The notes under the pieces are model-generated. The model ran no database searches. It was not told the DNA's origin and saw only the letters and a program-made list of their open reading frames with translations. A program made the translations under genes and the position numbers. From Solibacillus merdavium (lineage in GTDB: Bacteria > Bacillota > Bacilli > Bacillales_A > Planococcaceae): DNA of 64,000 bases. Location: positions 434,001-498,000 of the forward strand of contig NZ_JACSPW010000001.1 in the NCBI RefSeq assembly GCF_014836935.1, read 5' to 3'. Position 1 is the stretch's first letter, and each line of letters opens with the position of its first letter. This document shows positions 1-52,557 of the stretch, piece by piece.

Positions 1-19
1 AGAAAAATAATTATTGTGT

Positions 20-52
20 ACCCAAGCGAATGGCTCCGCTTGGGTTTTATTT
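20..52 (+). terminator. Intrinsic terminator of the gene upstream of the window
   Basis: The arms ACCCAAGCG (20-28) and CGCTTGGGT (37-45) form a perfect hairpin followed by TTTTATTTG. It ends a gene lying outside the window. In Bacillales recA usually precedes rny, so recA is the likely source, but this is inference. Confidence 0.85.
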
Positions 53-85: not shown

Positions 86-261
86 AATGGCAATTATATA
101 AGAGCAGTGACGAATATGTTGCTTGAAGTGGCGAATAAATTTCAAAGTGGCGATTAAATATAAGAGAGTGACGAATAAGTTACTGGAAGTGGCGAATACG
201 CGCTGGGATTTGACGAATAAAATACAGGGAGTGACGAATAACCGGATGAATTTGGCGAATA
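86..261 (+). repeat. Phased 21-bp repeat array (AGTGRCGAATA units), copy 1
   Basis: An 11-bp motif, AGTGRCGAATA, starts at 106, 127, 146, 167, 188, 209, 230 and 251. A weaker copy starts at 86 and a solitary out-of-phase one at 346. All steps between strong units are 21 bp except one of 19. The roughly 10 bp between motifs are not conserved. Because 21 is a multiple of 3, a 65-residue reading frame with a 7-residue period crosses the array. It lacks a convincing ribosome binding site and its changes are not synonymous, so I treat the array as non-coding. A second array lies at 11378-11493. Confidence 0.85.
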
Positions 262-425
262 TATGTTTAGGGAAGTTCTTTAAGCGATACTTTCTTCATA
301 AAAATGTGAGAGAAAGTTGAGGAATGTGTCTATAAAAACTATATAAGTGTCGAATAAAGTTATCTTTCCGGCAAAAAAGTCTCTCAAATCAATAAATATA
401 AAAAAACCTTTAAACATGGCTATTC

Positions 426-10440: not shown

Positions 10441-11307
10441 ATGGCAACATTTAAAGATTTCCGAAATTCCGTAAAACCTAACTGGTGTCCTGGCTGTGGT
10501 GACTTCTCCGTACAAGCGGCGATTCAACGCGCAGCAGCAAACGTAGGCTATGAACCAAGTGAATTGGCTATCATCTCAGGTATCGGTTGTTCAGGTCGTA
10601 TTTCCGGGTATATTAATTCATACGGCTTCCACGGCATTCATGGCCGTGCGTTACCAATTGCACAAGGTTTGAAAATGGCCAACAAAGACTTGAAAGTTAT
10701 CGCATCTGGCGGTGACGGAGACGGCTTTGCAATTGGTATGGGTCACACGATTCATGCAATCCGCCGTAACATCGACATTACGTATGTTGTAATGGATAAC
10801 CAAATTTACGGATTAACAAAAGGTCAAACTTCTCCACGTTCTGCTGCTGGTTTCATTACGAAATCAACACCAGGTGGGGCAATCGAGCCGTCATTAAAAC
10901 CGCTAGAAGTTGCTTTAACAGCAGGTGCGACATTTGTGGCACAAGGCTTCTCCACGGATATTAAAGAACTGACAGCAATGATCGAAGCCGGCTTAAACCA
11001 TAAAGGCTTCTCATTCATTAACGTATTCTCGCCATGTGTAACGTACAATAAAGTGAACACATACGACTGGTTCAAAGAAAATTTAACAAAGCTCGCTGAC
11101 ATTGAAGGCTATGATTCTTCTAATCGAGAAATGGCAATGCAAACAGTAATGCGCCACGAAGGTCTTGTAACAGGCGTTATTTATCAGGATACAGAAACAA
11201 CTTCTTATCAAGATAAAATTAAAGGCTATTCAGAGTTGCCGTTAACAGATATCGATATTAGCTTATCGGAAGATCAATTTGATCAACTTATTAAAGAATT
11301 TATGTAA
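10441..11307 (+). CDS. korB: 2-oxoacid:ferredoxin oxidoreductase, beta subunit
   Basis: Thiamine-diphosphate-binding partner of the upstream alpha subunit. The 288 residues show WCPGCGDFSVQAAIQ near residue 15 with iron-sulfur-type cysteines, GIGCSGRISGY near 48, and the TPP-binding GDGDGFAIGMGH followed by VVMDNQIYGLTKGQTSPRS. FSPCVTYN near 195 carries a further conserved cysteine. Length and motifs are those of the two-subunit bacterial enzymes. AAGGAGGAAATT before the ATG overlaps the end of korA. The pair probably serves aerobic 2-oxoglutarate oxidation alongside or in place of the dehydrogenase complex; the substrate is inferred from family. Confidence 0.93.
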   Translation: MATFKDFRNSVKPNWCPGCGDFSVQAAIQRAAANVGYEPSELAIISGIGCSGRISGYINSYGFHGIHGRALPIAQGLKMANKDLKVIASGGDGDGFAIGMGHTIHAIRRNIDITYVVMDNQIYGLTKGQTSPRSAAGFITKSTPGGAIEPSLKPLEVALTAGATFVAQGFSTDIKELTAMIEAGLNHKGFSFINVFSPCVTYNKVNTYDWFKENLTKLADIEGYDSSNREMAMQTVMRHEGLVTGVIYQDTETTSYQDKIKGYSELPLTDIDISLSEDQFDQLIKEFM

Positions 11308-11319
11308 ATAATAATTTTA

Positions 11320-11363
11320 GGGCTATATAGGCTGAATTTTTCAGCTTATATAGCTCTTTTTTC
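11320..11363 (+). terminator. Intrinsic terminator after korB
   Basis: GGGCTATATAGGCTGAA (11320-11336) pairs with TTCAGCTTATATAGCTC (11340-11356), with two G-T pairs, and is followed by TTTTTTC. The 21-bp repeat array starts right after it. Confidence 0.9.
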
Positions 11364-11377
11364 ATTTTGGAGTGAAA

Positions 11378-11493
11378 AGTGGCGAATATCTGGGATCGGG
11401 TGGCGAATATGTGAGATGAAGTGACGATTATGCTAAGTGATTTGACGATTATCCATTTGTAGATGGCGAATAAGTATAAAGTAGTGGCGAATA
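11378..11493 (+). repeat. Phased 21-bp repeat array (AGTGRCGAATA units), copy 2
   Basis: Six motif copies start at 11378, 11399, 11420, 11441, 11462 and 11483, exactly 21 bp apart each time. The 11-bp motif is AGTGRCGAWTA, with two units starting TTT or GAT. The intervening 10 bp share nothing. The minus strand is open across the array and would give a Phe-Ala-Thr heptad repeat, but motif changes such as GAATA to GATTA are non-synonymous. It is in the same orientation as the array at 86-261 and, like it, follows an intrinsic terminator. Confidence 0.9.
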
Positions 11494-11991
11494 TCACACT
11501 AATTGTCTAATATTTAATTATTTGTTTACGAATAATTTACTAAGTATTACTATAAAGTCATTTATAATTTAGGTAGTTTAAGTTTTTTTAGCATACTATT
11601 TTTTTGATATTTAATAGAAAAAAATAAAAATGTGAAAATTAATAATTATTTTCAGAAAAATAATGAAATTCAATAAAATAACTGGTATATTTAATCAAGA
11701 AGATATATTACTGAATAATATGTTAAATAATTCCATGTGTTAAAATACCTAATATTTTGGAATAAATATTAAGATTTTTGGAATAATTTCTTTTATTAAG
11801 TTGCTCTTTGTAGTAAAATAGAATTAATTATTATGTGTAAACTGTAATAATATTGGGTTTTTATGCTTATGTTAAGGTAGTGGGAAACACTTAACTCCAG
11901 TAAACAACGTGCTATTTTAAAAGTTGGGGAAACTGCTGTAAAAAAATATAAAACACAGCATGAATATTACATTTTAGGGGGATGGATTTTT
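11494..11991. other. Very AT-rich gene-free region
   Basis: About 500 bp with no supported gene on either strand. Base composition is clearly more AT-rich than its surroundings, with many A and T runs from 11580 to 11860. The last 120 bp (GTGGGAAACACTTAAC and later GGGGAAACTGC) are less biased and could be a structured leader for the small gene at 11992, but I cannot assign a known RNA family. Confidence 0.4.
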
Positions 11992-34236: not shown

Positions 34237-34886
34237 GGTTCATCACCATAAGTTGGGGATGACAAAATTGAAAGAATAAGATTTTTTAATGAAATCCGTT
34301 CTGTTGCGCTACGGGAAAAACGCGTTGAAGCAAGTGTTTTTGAAGCTCGCGTCCGTTGTACTACGTTCTGGGGCAGGCTTTCCGGGCGGAGTGGCTCCAA
34401 AGCTTTTGTAGATTAAATTGCGTAACGAGATAAATAGAGGAATGAATTTCCGTTATTTTTAAAATAACATAAAAAATAGTGAAAATAACGGAAGGGATTT
34501 CCGTTATTGACCTAAAAAACATGAAATTTCAGGATTTTATTTAAAATAACGGTAAAACGTTCCCTTATTTTTCCTAAAACGAGTTACATCATTCAAATAG
34601 CGGTAAAATCTCCCTTTATTTTAGGAGGGCACTGAAAAACTTAATAATAAGGCACTTTCTGTCTACTAAGGCGTTTTGCCCACTCAAAGTTGGTCGGATA
34701 CTTCAGTGCTTTTATTCTACCACTTTATAACGAGGGAAAATTTTCGGATTGGTGGGCCTCGCAAACGGTAATAAAGGCAGTGATAAAGACATGTATCACG
34801 TGGTTTTAGCGCGGTCTACCGTAGCCCACGAATCAATCAATTGAAATTTTATTAGAAAATCTTCCCCATGTTATGGTGATGAGCGG
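34237..34886 (+). mobile_element. Candidate 650-bp non-autonomous element (extended repeat, copy C)
   Basis: The ends carry inverted copies of TCATCACCATAANNTGGGGA (left from 34240; right ending near 34882, 18 of 20 bases alike). Just outside each end lies AATCTTT (34230-34236 and 34887-34893), a candidate 7-bp target duplication. Inside are a GC-rich end (34370-34400), the four-box core, and an inner inverted repeat, GATTGGTGGGC (34747-34757) with GCCCACGAATC (34824-34834). No transposase or other protein is encoded. Most of it matches 23490-23950 in inverse orientation. It occupies the gap between phoH and pgpH. Confidence 0.55.
34432..34621 (+). repeat. Four-box 51-61-51 palindrome element, copy C core
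   Basis: Boxes of 27 bp start at 34432, 34483, 34544 and 34595 (steps 51, 61, 51). Box 2 is the best palindrome: AAATAACGGAA, GGGAT, TTCCGTTATTG. Boxes 3 and 4 share a GGTAAAA core. The gap between boxes 2 and 3 contains CCTAAAAAACATGAAATTTC, identical to copy D. Confidence 0.92.
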
Positions 34887-35011
34887 AATCTTTCGTTTTT
34901 AATAGATAATTTTATAGGCGGAAAGACATTTATTAGAAAAACATACAAGCTTTTCGTAACAACGAGGATATAAATTTGTTAAAATAAAAGTAGAAAGTAA
35001 AGTGGAGGTGC

Positions 35012-52252: not shown

Positions 52253-52275
52253 GATAGGGTAAGGAGTGAATAGGG

Positions 52276-52465
52276 AAATAGAGGAACGAATTTCCCTTAT
52301 TTCACAAATAAATTAAAAAATAGTGAAAATAAGGGAAGGAATTTCCGTTATTGACCTAAAAAACATGAAATTTCAGGATTTTATTTAAAATAACGGTAAA
52401 ACGTTCCCTTATTTATCCTAAAATGAGCTACATCATTCAAATAACGGTAATATCTCCCCTTATTT
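52276..52465 (+). repeat. Four-box 51-61-51 palindrome element, copy D
   Basis: Boxes start at 52276, 52327, 52388 and 52439 (steps 51, 61, 51). Sequence is close to copy C across the whole core, including the gap between boxes 2 and 3. Only the core and a short right flank (AAAAAGGCACTTTCT) are shared with C; the longer arms are absent. It lies between the convergent iclR-type gene and glyS. Confidence 0.92.
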
Positions 52466-52557
52466 TAGCGTCGGGTACTCGGTAGGGAAGTTACTTTAAT
52501 AAAAAAATAAGAAAAAGGCACTTTCTATTCGTAACGAACGGAAAGTGCCATATAAAA

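Follow-up and report, generated by a model that had tools for sequence, protein, structure and literature searches.

Bacterial genomes contain interspersed intergenic repeats that are palindromic or structured, including REP/BIME, bcr, BOX and ERIC, and the REP/BIME elements among these are short imperfect palindromes that often occur with a RAYT transposase. Plasmid iteron arrays are bound by Rep proteins and have an adjacent rep gene and origin. We know of no system that puts a dedicated helix-phased multi-site element directly behind intrinsic terminators. BldC of Streptomyces, a MerR-like wHTH protein, binds direct repeats in variable number as a directional head-to-tail oligomer, with one subunit per 9-bp site, in promoters, and with periodic cleavage along roughly one face of the DNA (PMC5859096). 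DNA-bound proteins that act as roadblocks to RNA polymerase have also been described, as have H-NS filaments that aid termination (PMC10310618, PMC4337669).

Here we describe arrays of short words repeated at 21-bp steps behind genes of Solibacillus. What the sequence-only reading of the first two such arrays did not bring out is that they are not free-standing: they belong to a dispersed element that has a fixed nine-unit block, comes in several motif subfamilies and occupies slots in which one motif type replaces another. The element resembles BldC operators in its direct repeats in variable number and in the head-to-tail binding on one face that we propose, but differs in its 21-bp step, its position after terminators, its fixed block architecture and its tens to about a hundred copies; the step and the position rule out 9-bp promoter repeats, and the BldC operator class was rejected. 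Like REP/BIME, bcr, BOX and ERIC, the element is dispersed, non-coding, present in tens to hundreds of copies and preferentially 3' of genes; unlike them it is built of phased direct words and shows no clear sign of inverted ends, and the copies compared include no recent ones. The REP/BIME class was rejected on these direct words and on flank pairing not significantly above cross pairing. Iterons share direct repeats with an about two-turn phase and blocks parted by linkers, whereas the present element is chromosomal, dispersed after terminators beside ordinary chromosomal host genes, and conserved at only about 11-13 of 21 positions. The likeness to roadblocks and H-NS filaments lies in the proposed effect, a DNA-bound protein that would stop or pause polymerase. 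We class the element with the interspersed intergenic repeats, although its architecture matches none of these families. It is apparently undescribed so far: we found no description in the open-access literature searched, a scope outside which most subscription papers lie.

Two phased arrays in the analysed window

The window, the whole 64-kb stretch of Solibacillus merdavium DNA (source genome, G000) that was analysed, contains the following features.

8 to 10, forward strand: recA stop codon; the gene body lies upstream of the window and the recA match ends at window position 7 (C11:434007)
21 to 48, forward strand: recA intrinsic terminator, hairpin 21-44 and T-tract 45-48; -15.3 kcal/mol
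103 to 271, forward strand: array 1, a nine-unit motif-1 block; 105.1 bits, E 1e-31 with the motif-1 model R2, array 1 being among the nine arrays used to build R2
314 to 363, forward strand: second, weak block of array 1, made up of degenerate units, with AAGTGTCGAATA at 345-356; R2 12.2 bits, E 0.0068
10441 to 11307, forward strand: host gene of array 2, 2-oxoacid (pyruvate) ferredoxin oxidoreductase (PFOR) beta subunit; Pfam PF02775, PF12367
11319 to 11362, forward strand: PFOR beta intrinsic terminator, hairpin 11319-11356 and T-tract 11357-11362; -24.6 kcal/mol
11375 to 11497, forward strand: array 2, six motif-1 units at exactly 21 bp; R2 68.3 bits, E 2.6e-20, array 2 being outside the R2 training set
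11501 to 11535, forward strand: degenerate units that trail array 2 at steps of 19 and 22

Array 1 sits between recA and rny (RNase Y) and array 2 downstream of PFOR beta, and each follows a same-strand gene and its intrinsic terminator, the place after a terminator having been noted from the sequence alone; the distance from the T-tract to the first strong unit is ~57 bp for array 1 and ~15 bp for array 2. The units of array 2 start at 11378, 11399, 11420, 11441, 11462 and 11483, every step being 21 bp, which is the exact phase originally reported. The 11-mer AGTGRCGAWTA that had been given as the motif is complete in only three of these six units (11378, 11420, 11483), the remaining three opening with GGTG, TTTG and GATG; its 9-mer core TGRCGAWTA, here called motif 1, is present in all six, and it is this core that stands. 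Array 1 has the eight strong units and single 19-bp step previously described (11-mer starts at 106, 127, 146, 167, 188, 209, 230 and 251), and also a weaker unit upstream of the strong eight. Counting both strands, the window has 19 TGRCGAWTA sites with 11 pairs exactly 21 bp apart, and 200 dinucleotide shuffles of it gave a mean of 2.68 core sites and 0 pairs at 21 bp.

Neighbouring units are unlike in their spacers, with mean identities over 9 nt of 0.34 and 0.29 in the two window arrays, and the variable letters of the motif are hardly correlated between neighbours (67 pairs; R agreement 0.49 observed against 0.50 expected, W 0.63 against 0.56). A tandem slippage repeat is therefore unlikely and was rejected, in agreement with the sequence-only reading.

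A coding repeat or a structured RNA would be in keeping with a unit length divisible by three, with the short ORFs that overlap the arrays, and with the folding of array 2 plus its terminator, which is better than that of shuffles (z -3.40). However, in-frame stops together with 19- and 20-bp steps break the frames and the spacers diverge freely, while the array 2 fold contains the terminator hairpin; array 1 alone gives z -0.76 and the L164 element with its terminator z -1.62. A tRNA was the one Rfam match when the window and four element loci were searched. The ORFs of at least 60 aa over the window arrays are 65 aa each and lie on opposite strands, and GTG-GCG-AAT and TTC-GCC-ACT, that is Val-Ala-Asn and Phe-Ala-Thr, are the two strands of one motif. 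These observations, with the frame-breaking steps, fit the earlier suggestion that small proteins with such heptads are mistranslated array DNA. Contradicted by the frames, the fold z-scores and the Rfam search, a coding repeat, a structured RNA and an Rfam family were rejected as candidates, and we regard a coding or RNA origin of the arrays as very improbable.

The motif-1 family in the source genome

A genome scan for runs of the motif at 21-bp steps, an idea put forward with the first reading, returned 61 exact motif-1 pairs and about 14 arrays in G000, against 0 pairs for the reversed control pattern. The R2 model has at least 25 matches in this genome, one of which, at C11:13716, lies beyond the 14 arrays. 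Across 127 units, a set that includes array 1 twice (as L034 and as the window), a conserved stretch of about AAGTGRCGAWTAW is followed by about 8 free positions, and only about 11-13 positions of each 21-bp unit are conserved. The units called in L031, L033 and L037 have 21-bp steps only, as do those of L038a and array 2 except for the last steps. The motif-1 alignment (A2) comprises nine of twelve copies, the extra L036a and L041 copies being omitted.

The 217-kb G000 contig C43 holds six of the about 14 arrays. Two stretches, L036 10583-11205 (C43) and L041 2698-3320 (C53), apparently contain three tandem block copies, with 29 units called in each; the super-repeat of L036 is about 217 bp.

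A second subfamily with a two-block element

Downstream of PFOR beta in G004, G006, G007 and G008 the word is not motif 1 but TTATTAGAA, again at a 21-bp step. The majority of TTATTAGAA arrays represent one repeated element, ~320 bp long, that consists of block A (four units), a linker and block B (nine units), and some elements are without block A. The step order of block B, 21,21,21,21,21,19,20,20/21, is kept within 1 bp in all 19 copies dissected (L161, L169, L170 and the second array of L171 were excluded), and the 19,20,20/21 tail recurs in 40 of 40 further elements, a set selected by a model built on that geometry. Several motif-1 arrays have the steps 21,20/21,19,21,21,21,21,21, which is the TTATTAGAA block order reversed. 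Only 31 gap characters occur in the 3,492 cells of an alignment of 18 block copies (A1, 18 of the 19 blocks, L154 omitted). At the variable columns, which like the conserved ones were defined from A1 itself, copies within one genome are 39% (G008) and 44% (G001) identical, and the best pair reaches 72%.

When searched with the motif-1 model, TTATTAGAA elements give matches on the opposite strand; the lowest E is 3e-8, and most values lie at ~1e-4 to 0.03. One such cross-match spans positions 13-169 of 175, and the reverse search agrees, more weakly. The two subfamilies therefore appear homologous, yet oppositely oriented relative to their host genes.

A motif-free detector (9-mers with up to 2 mismatches, at least 4 units) found arrays at base periods of 20-22 only, and none at 14-19 or 23-33, in 93 kb of intergenic DNA within 864 kb from three Solibacillus genomes, the G003 and G013 stretches having been picked around the recA-PFOR region. 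It yielded three arrays in G000, one in G003 and one in G013, and 0 in one shuffle per piece. One of the G000 arrays is of the word TTCTACATTA, behind a terminator, and the G013 array is of YCGYAAATA, after recA. In 0.26 Mb from other genera, where at least 5 units were called for, the one array detected also has a period of 20-22, with a GGKCGYTAA-like word five times at 21 bp. A scan for exact periods gave rows at d=41, the double step of YCGYAAATA, at d=42, the double step of array 1, and at d=51, a separate palindromic element; the rows at d=27, d=15 and one d=21 in G003 look like coding repeats by sequence and were set aside.

Two other features of the window were recorded. At 34838-34950, in a long intergenic stretch, there are weak degenerate TTATTAGAA units, perhaps a decayed TTATTAGAA element. 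A second dispersed repeat, of AATAACGG/AATAAGGG words plus inverted copies (CCGTTATT), occurs at 34436-34620 and 52270-52480 and also on contig C11 of G000 at ~277784; its two window copies are closely similar, the second lies directly after a terminator-like hairpin, and the repeat has no match in plasmids.

Linkers vary by helical turns

The gaps between blocks provide evidence on how the element may be read. The 59 gaps, at 58 loci (G001 27, G006 20, G008 12), were measured between blocks of at least 3 units with L161 and L169 left out, and fall at 38-42 (4), 50 (3), 61 (1), 71-72 (9), 80-83 (41) and 91 (1) bp, the rarer modes resting on one to four gaps each and some G006 loci being probably orthologous to G001 and G008 loci. 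Apparent linkers of 26 and 33 in the histogram are spurious unit calls within linkers (45+26, 55+26, 48+33). The best-fitting period among 7-16 bp is 10.3-10.4 bp, with an rms residual of 0.65 bp. When the gaps are represented by six modes (40, 50, 61, 71, 81, 91), with centres that we chose (40 for 38-42; 81 for 80-83), random sets are as periodic in 2 of 20,000 cases at 10.0-10.8 bp and in 1 of 20,000 at any period of 8-14 bp; for the four modes backed by at least two gaps the figure is 22 of 20,000. A test on the 12 distinct gap lengths gave 0 of 20,000, but it counts neighbouring lengths separately, and the mode tests are stricter. Motif-1 gaps of 28-29 and 51 bp fit the series, one further motif-1 gap being 126, as do gaps of 38-41 in Ureibacillus and S. 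faecavium, and in the 40 further elements linker length varies mostly by one helical turn.

Spacing by whole turns, or at a constant offset from them, is thus kept across variable linkers (period 10.2-10.4 bp), which places the element in the class of helically phased arrays; the 19-bp step, however, does not correspond to whole turns. Since 10.2-10.4 bp is the helical period of B-DNA, the element would be read as double-stranded DNA, on one face. RNA, coding or slippage do not predict quantised linkers, and proteins along one face of double-stranded DNA do. From this geometry we consider it highly probable that the element serves helically phased protein binding on double-stranded DNA and is read on one face. 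A polymerising or cooperative protein coating one DNA face had been suggested from array 2 and array 1; the quantised linkers independently back a cooperative protein of this kind, and a polymerising one stays a supposition.

Placement behind terminators and differing motifs within slots

The ORF upstream of the array is on the same strand for 13 of 14 motif-1 arrays (one at 437 bp), 22 of 23 TTATTAGAA arrays and 36 of 40 in a second TTATTAGAA set, genes being called by ORF length, not annotation. The preference for terminator-proximal sites that had been raised for the first two arrays was borne out: in the 150 bp preceding the array, 10 of 14 motif-1 and 19 of 22 TTATTAGAA cases have a sense terminator (the second array of L171 was omitted from this count), compared with 1 of 14 and 3 of 22 within 150 bp after it; on the antisense strand the motif-1 count is 3 of 14 for either stretch. 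In the second TTATTAGAA set a sense terminator precedes 22 of 40 and follows 5 of 40, and an antisense terminator additionally lies downstream in 12 of 40. A hairpin-like stretch, read by eye, precedes the array in L037 and L041. Exceptions to the placement in Solibacillus are L032 (clear), L161 and four of the second set. Among 17 Bacillales stretches outside Solibacillus, ten lie after a same-strand ORF, six do not and one was not judged, so that the placement rule is well supported in Solibacillus only. The named host genes encode HPr, a permease, a NERD protein, an aminotransferase, a nitrilase-type hydrolase, a sigma factor, aconitase, an ABC transporter, RecA and PFOR beta, and have no common function.

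An array follows recA in 10 of 16 Solibacillus genomes, with three motif types across the genus: motif 1 in G000, YCGYAAATA in G013 and G015, and TTATTAGAA in G001, G004, G005 (degenerate, by eye), G006, G007, G008 and G012. No clear array was seen in this slot in the other six (G003, G009, G010, G011, G014, and G002, which may have a remnant), and among eight genomes of other genera there was none in three, the slot being not readable in five. By PFOR beta, G005 is the nearest relative of G000 (99%; others 98% or less), yet its recA slot has a different motif, and one motif type therefore probably replaced another at recA between the two. The aminotransferase slot has TGRCGAWTA in G000 and G001, six TGAGGATTA units at exactly 21 bp in G008 (L202 104-248) and a single TGAGGATTA unit in G004 (L225). 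Counting against the retention of slots, of ten G000 motif-1 slots six in G001 and nine in G008 have neither main motif, and four of the eight TTATTAGAA slots testable in G000 and G005 are empty. Arrays are present or absent at orthologous sites, and the differing flanks there mask any target-site duplication.

Conservation

In nine orthologous pairs, with the recA trio left out, 26 of 846 motif positions differ (3.1%, biased somewhat downward since units were called by motif similarity), as do 356 of 1,761 spacer positions (20.2%) and 253 of 2,122 flank positions (11.9%), the flanks including gene ends and terminators. Motif and spacing are conserved above spacers.

Distribution across genomes

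Among the matches listed, the block-B model has 95 in G001, 104 in G004, 110 in G006, 95 in G007, 82 in G008 and 59 in G012, with 34 in G000, 35 in G005 and 0-5 in the other eight Solibacillus genomes. The motif-1 model R2 matches 60 of 121 genomes of the family and 14 of 19 genera (among the matches listed, with rough E-values), the matches beyond Solibacillus being counted as the search gave them. Among the matches listed, 11 of 16 Solibacillus genomes have exact TTATTAGA pairs, compared with 0 of 9 genomes from outside the genus, the control pattern giving one match (G026); exact motif-1 pairs occur in 7 of 41 genomes, all Solibacillus, among the matches listed. Placement near the origin was considered and set aside: G008 has no exact TTATTAGA pair at 1.44-2.76 Mb (by eye, among the matches listed), and other genomes are not clearly concordant.

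Genera of Bacillales with motif-1 triplets on named contigs include Solibacillus, Ureibacillus, Neobacillus, Cytobacillus and Niallia. The 41 stretches with such triplets comprise 8 from S. faecavium (G005), 17 from other Bacillales, which were analysed further, and 16 from other groups (Chitinophagales, Nostoc, Endozoicomonas, Streptococcus, Clostridia and others), which were dismissed on alike spacers, 7-bp subunits or open frames; similar spacers also occur in a few of the 17 (Cytobacillus L135, Niallia L140). L115, L124, L128, L142, L144 and L151 (Endozoicomonas, Chitinophagales, Nostoc, Magnetococcales) are 21-bp tandem repeats of the same 9-mer with similar spacers. Ureibacillus acetophenoni has long GGCGAATA arrays (L127, L134, L141, L147, L150) whose super-repeat is close to 103 bp and whose gaps measure ~40 bp; most of these arrays face a convergent gene downstream, and their sense strand is not G-rich.

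A possible mobile origin of the element

Remnants or non-autonomous copies of a mobile element, inserting after terminators in a fixed orientation, would account for dispersed copies with a common architecture, an orientation fixed within each subfamily, presence and absence at orthologous sites, and the replacement of one subfamily by another. Several transposase-binding sites lie at each end of Tn7-like elements. However, the units of both blocks point one way, and five tests on 15 TTATTAGAA and 13 motif-1 arrays did not show own-flank pairing to exceed cross-flank pairing significantly (p 0.11 to 0.66), so that inverted ends are not evident. Such ends and outer stems were rejected on these tests, and the MITE class on the lack of evident terminal inverted repeats and of recent near-identical copies among the 18 compared. 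The compared copies are old, as judged from the 39-44% identity at variable columns and the best pair of 72%, and their motif and spacing are intact, whereas dead copies would lose both. Neither the motif-1 nor the TTATTAGAA element query matched plasmids, and the TTATTAGAA element had no match in phages. We consider a mobile origin unlikely.

Strand composition and possible antisense termination

The sense strand of the arrays is G-rich in Solibacillus (motif-1 spacers, G 215 and C 99; first quarter of TTATTAGAA elements, G 373 and C 98). This composition is what would be expected if the antisense strand were a Rho utilisation (rut) array, a C-rich, G-poor and unstructured RNA ending antisense transcription into the 3' end of the gene, and the antisense RNA of array 1 does fold worse than shuffles (z +1.82). 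Against this, pooled Ureibacillus arrays have no skew, rut sites do not require a 9-bp word or helically quantised linkers, and the skew is opposite at the far flank: in 17 TTATTAGAA elements among L153-L172 the pooled skew is +0.54 to +0.58 (G-rich sense) on the terminator side and -0.34 (C-rich) at the far flank. A rut array as the explanation of the element is thus quite unlikely in our judgement, although the G-richness of the sense strand would allow Rho to contribute on the antisense side in Solibacillus.

A phased platform as a candidate insulator

Our best explanation, offered tentatively, is a phased protein platform that would act as a local insulator or roadblock after the terminator. 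Each element may be a non-coding double-stranded DNA platform on which a sequence-specific protein would occupy the 9-11 bp words in head-to-tail order. With a single protomer (or dimer) for every two turns, nine to thirteen or more copies would align along one helical face, and their binding would be cooperative. A cooperative head-to-tail binder would be the simplest reader of such an element, and BldC is an example that such proteins exist. The assembly would act locally as a transcription insulator, stopping or pausing RNA polymerase that passes the terminator as well as antisense polymerase from downstream, and would separate the gene from its neighbour. The sequences themselves show the motif, its fixed geometry, the quantised linkers, motif and spacing conserved above spacers, the post-terminator placement in Solibacillus and some slots (recA, PFOR beta) kept under a change of motif type; protein binding, its cooperativity and the transcription block or insulation are what we infer.

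Insulation is suggested as the most likely role since the platform lies just beyond an intrinsic terminator, and this placement, together with the local retention of some slots, favours a roadblock or insulator. For the job of the platform, taken separately from protein binding, a local insulator or roadblock is a plausible candidate that we hold with some reserve. The opposite orientation of the two subfamilies suggests that direction is not critical for the role, and counts against a strictly direction-dependent roadblock, by which it is not predicted.

The main rival keeps the same phased platform and gives it a global job, such as nucleoid organisation, anchoring, or a gyrase or supercoil sink downstream of genes, with terminators merely tolerating a 320-bp assembly. 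REP/BIME and the sites of Noc and MatP are analogues of such a role. The 82-110 model matches per genome in five relatives (among the matches listed), at many loci beside named host genes that are functionally diverse, are in line with it, as are the length of the nine-unit block, which at ~175 bp is wrap-sized, and the six of about 14 G000 motif-1 arrays on one 217-kb contig; helical phasing fits equally well, as chromosome structuring would give the same geometry. What speaks for a local role instead is the consistent post-terminator, same-strand placement in Solibacillus, and slots such as recA that retain arrays across species under motif change. Gyrase is conserved while the motif drifts between lineages, which argues against a gyrase sink in particular. 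We rate a global role as rather unlikely.

Returning to the local insulator, it may also be a replaceable cassette and thus a bacterial DNA element of a kind not described before, a possible though doubtful extension in which the predicted binder would change its specificity quickly under a fixed geometry; TTATTAGAA would be exchangeable with TGRCGAWTA, YCGYAAATA and TGAGGATTA, and the two-turn lattice would be kept family-wide. If the overall reading is correct, these arrays would provide bacteria with a dedicated insulator placed after the terminator. A share of some genomes that perhaps reaches 0.8% (an estimate from ~100 model matches of ~320 bp, some of which may be parts of one element) would then be a hidden geometry-coded layer at gene borders, which annotation may ignore or render as spurious heptad proteins. 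The natural linker series from 40 to 91 bp in one-turn steps would suit direct tests of cooperative DNA assembly, and the exchange of motifs within one slot would represent a co-evolving DNA specificity under fixed geometry.
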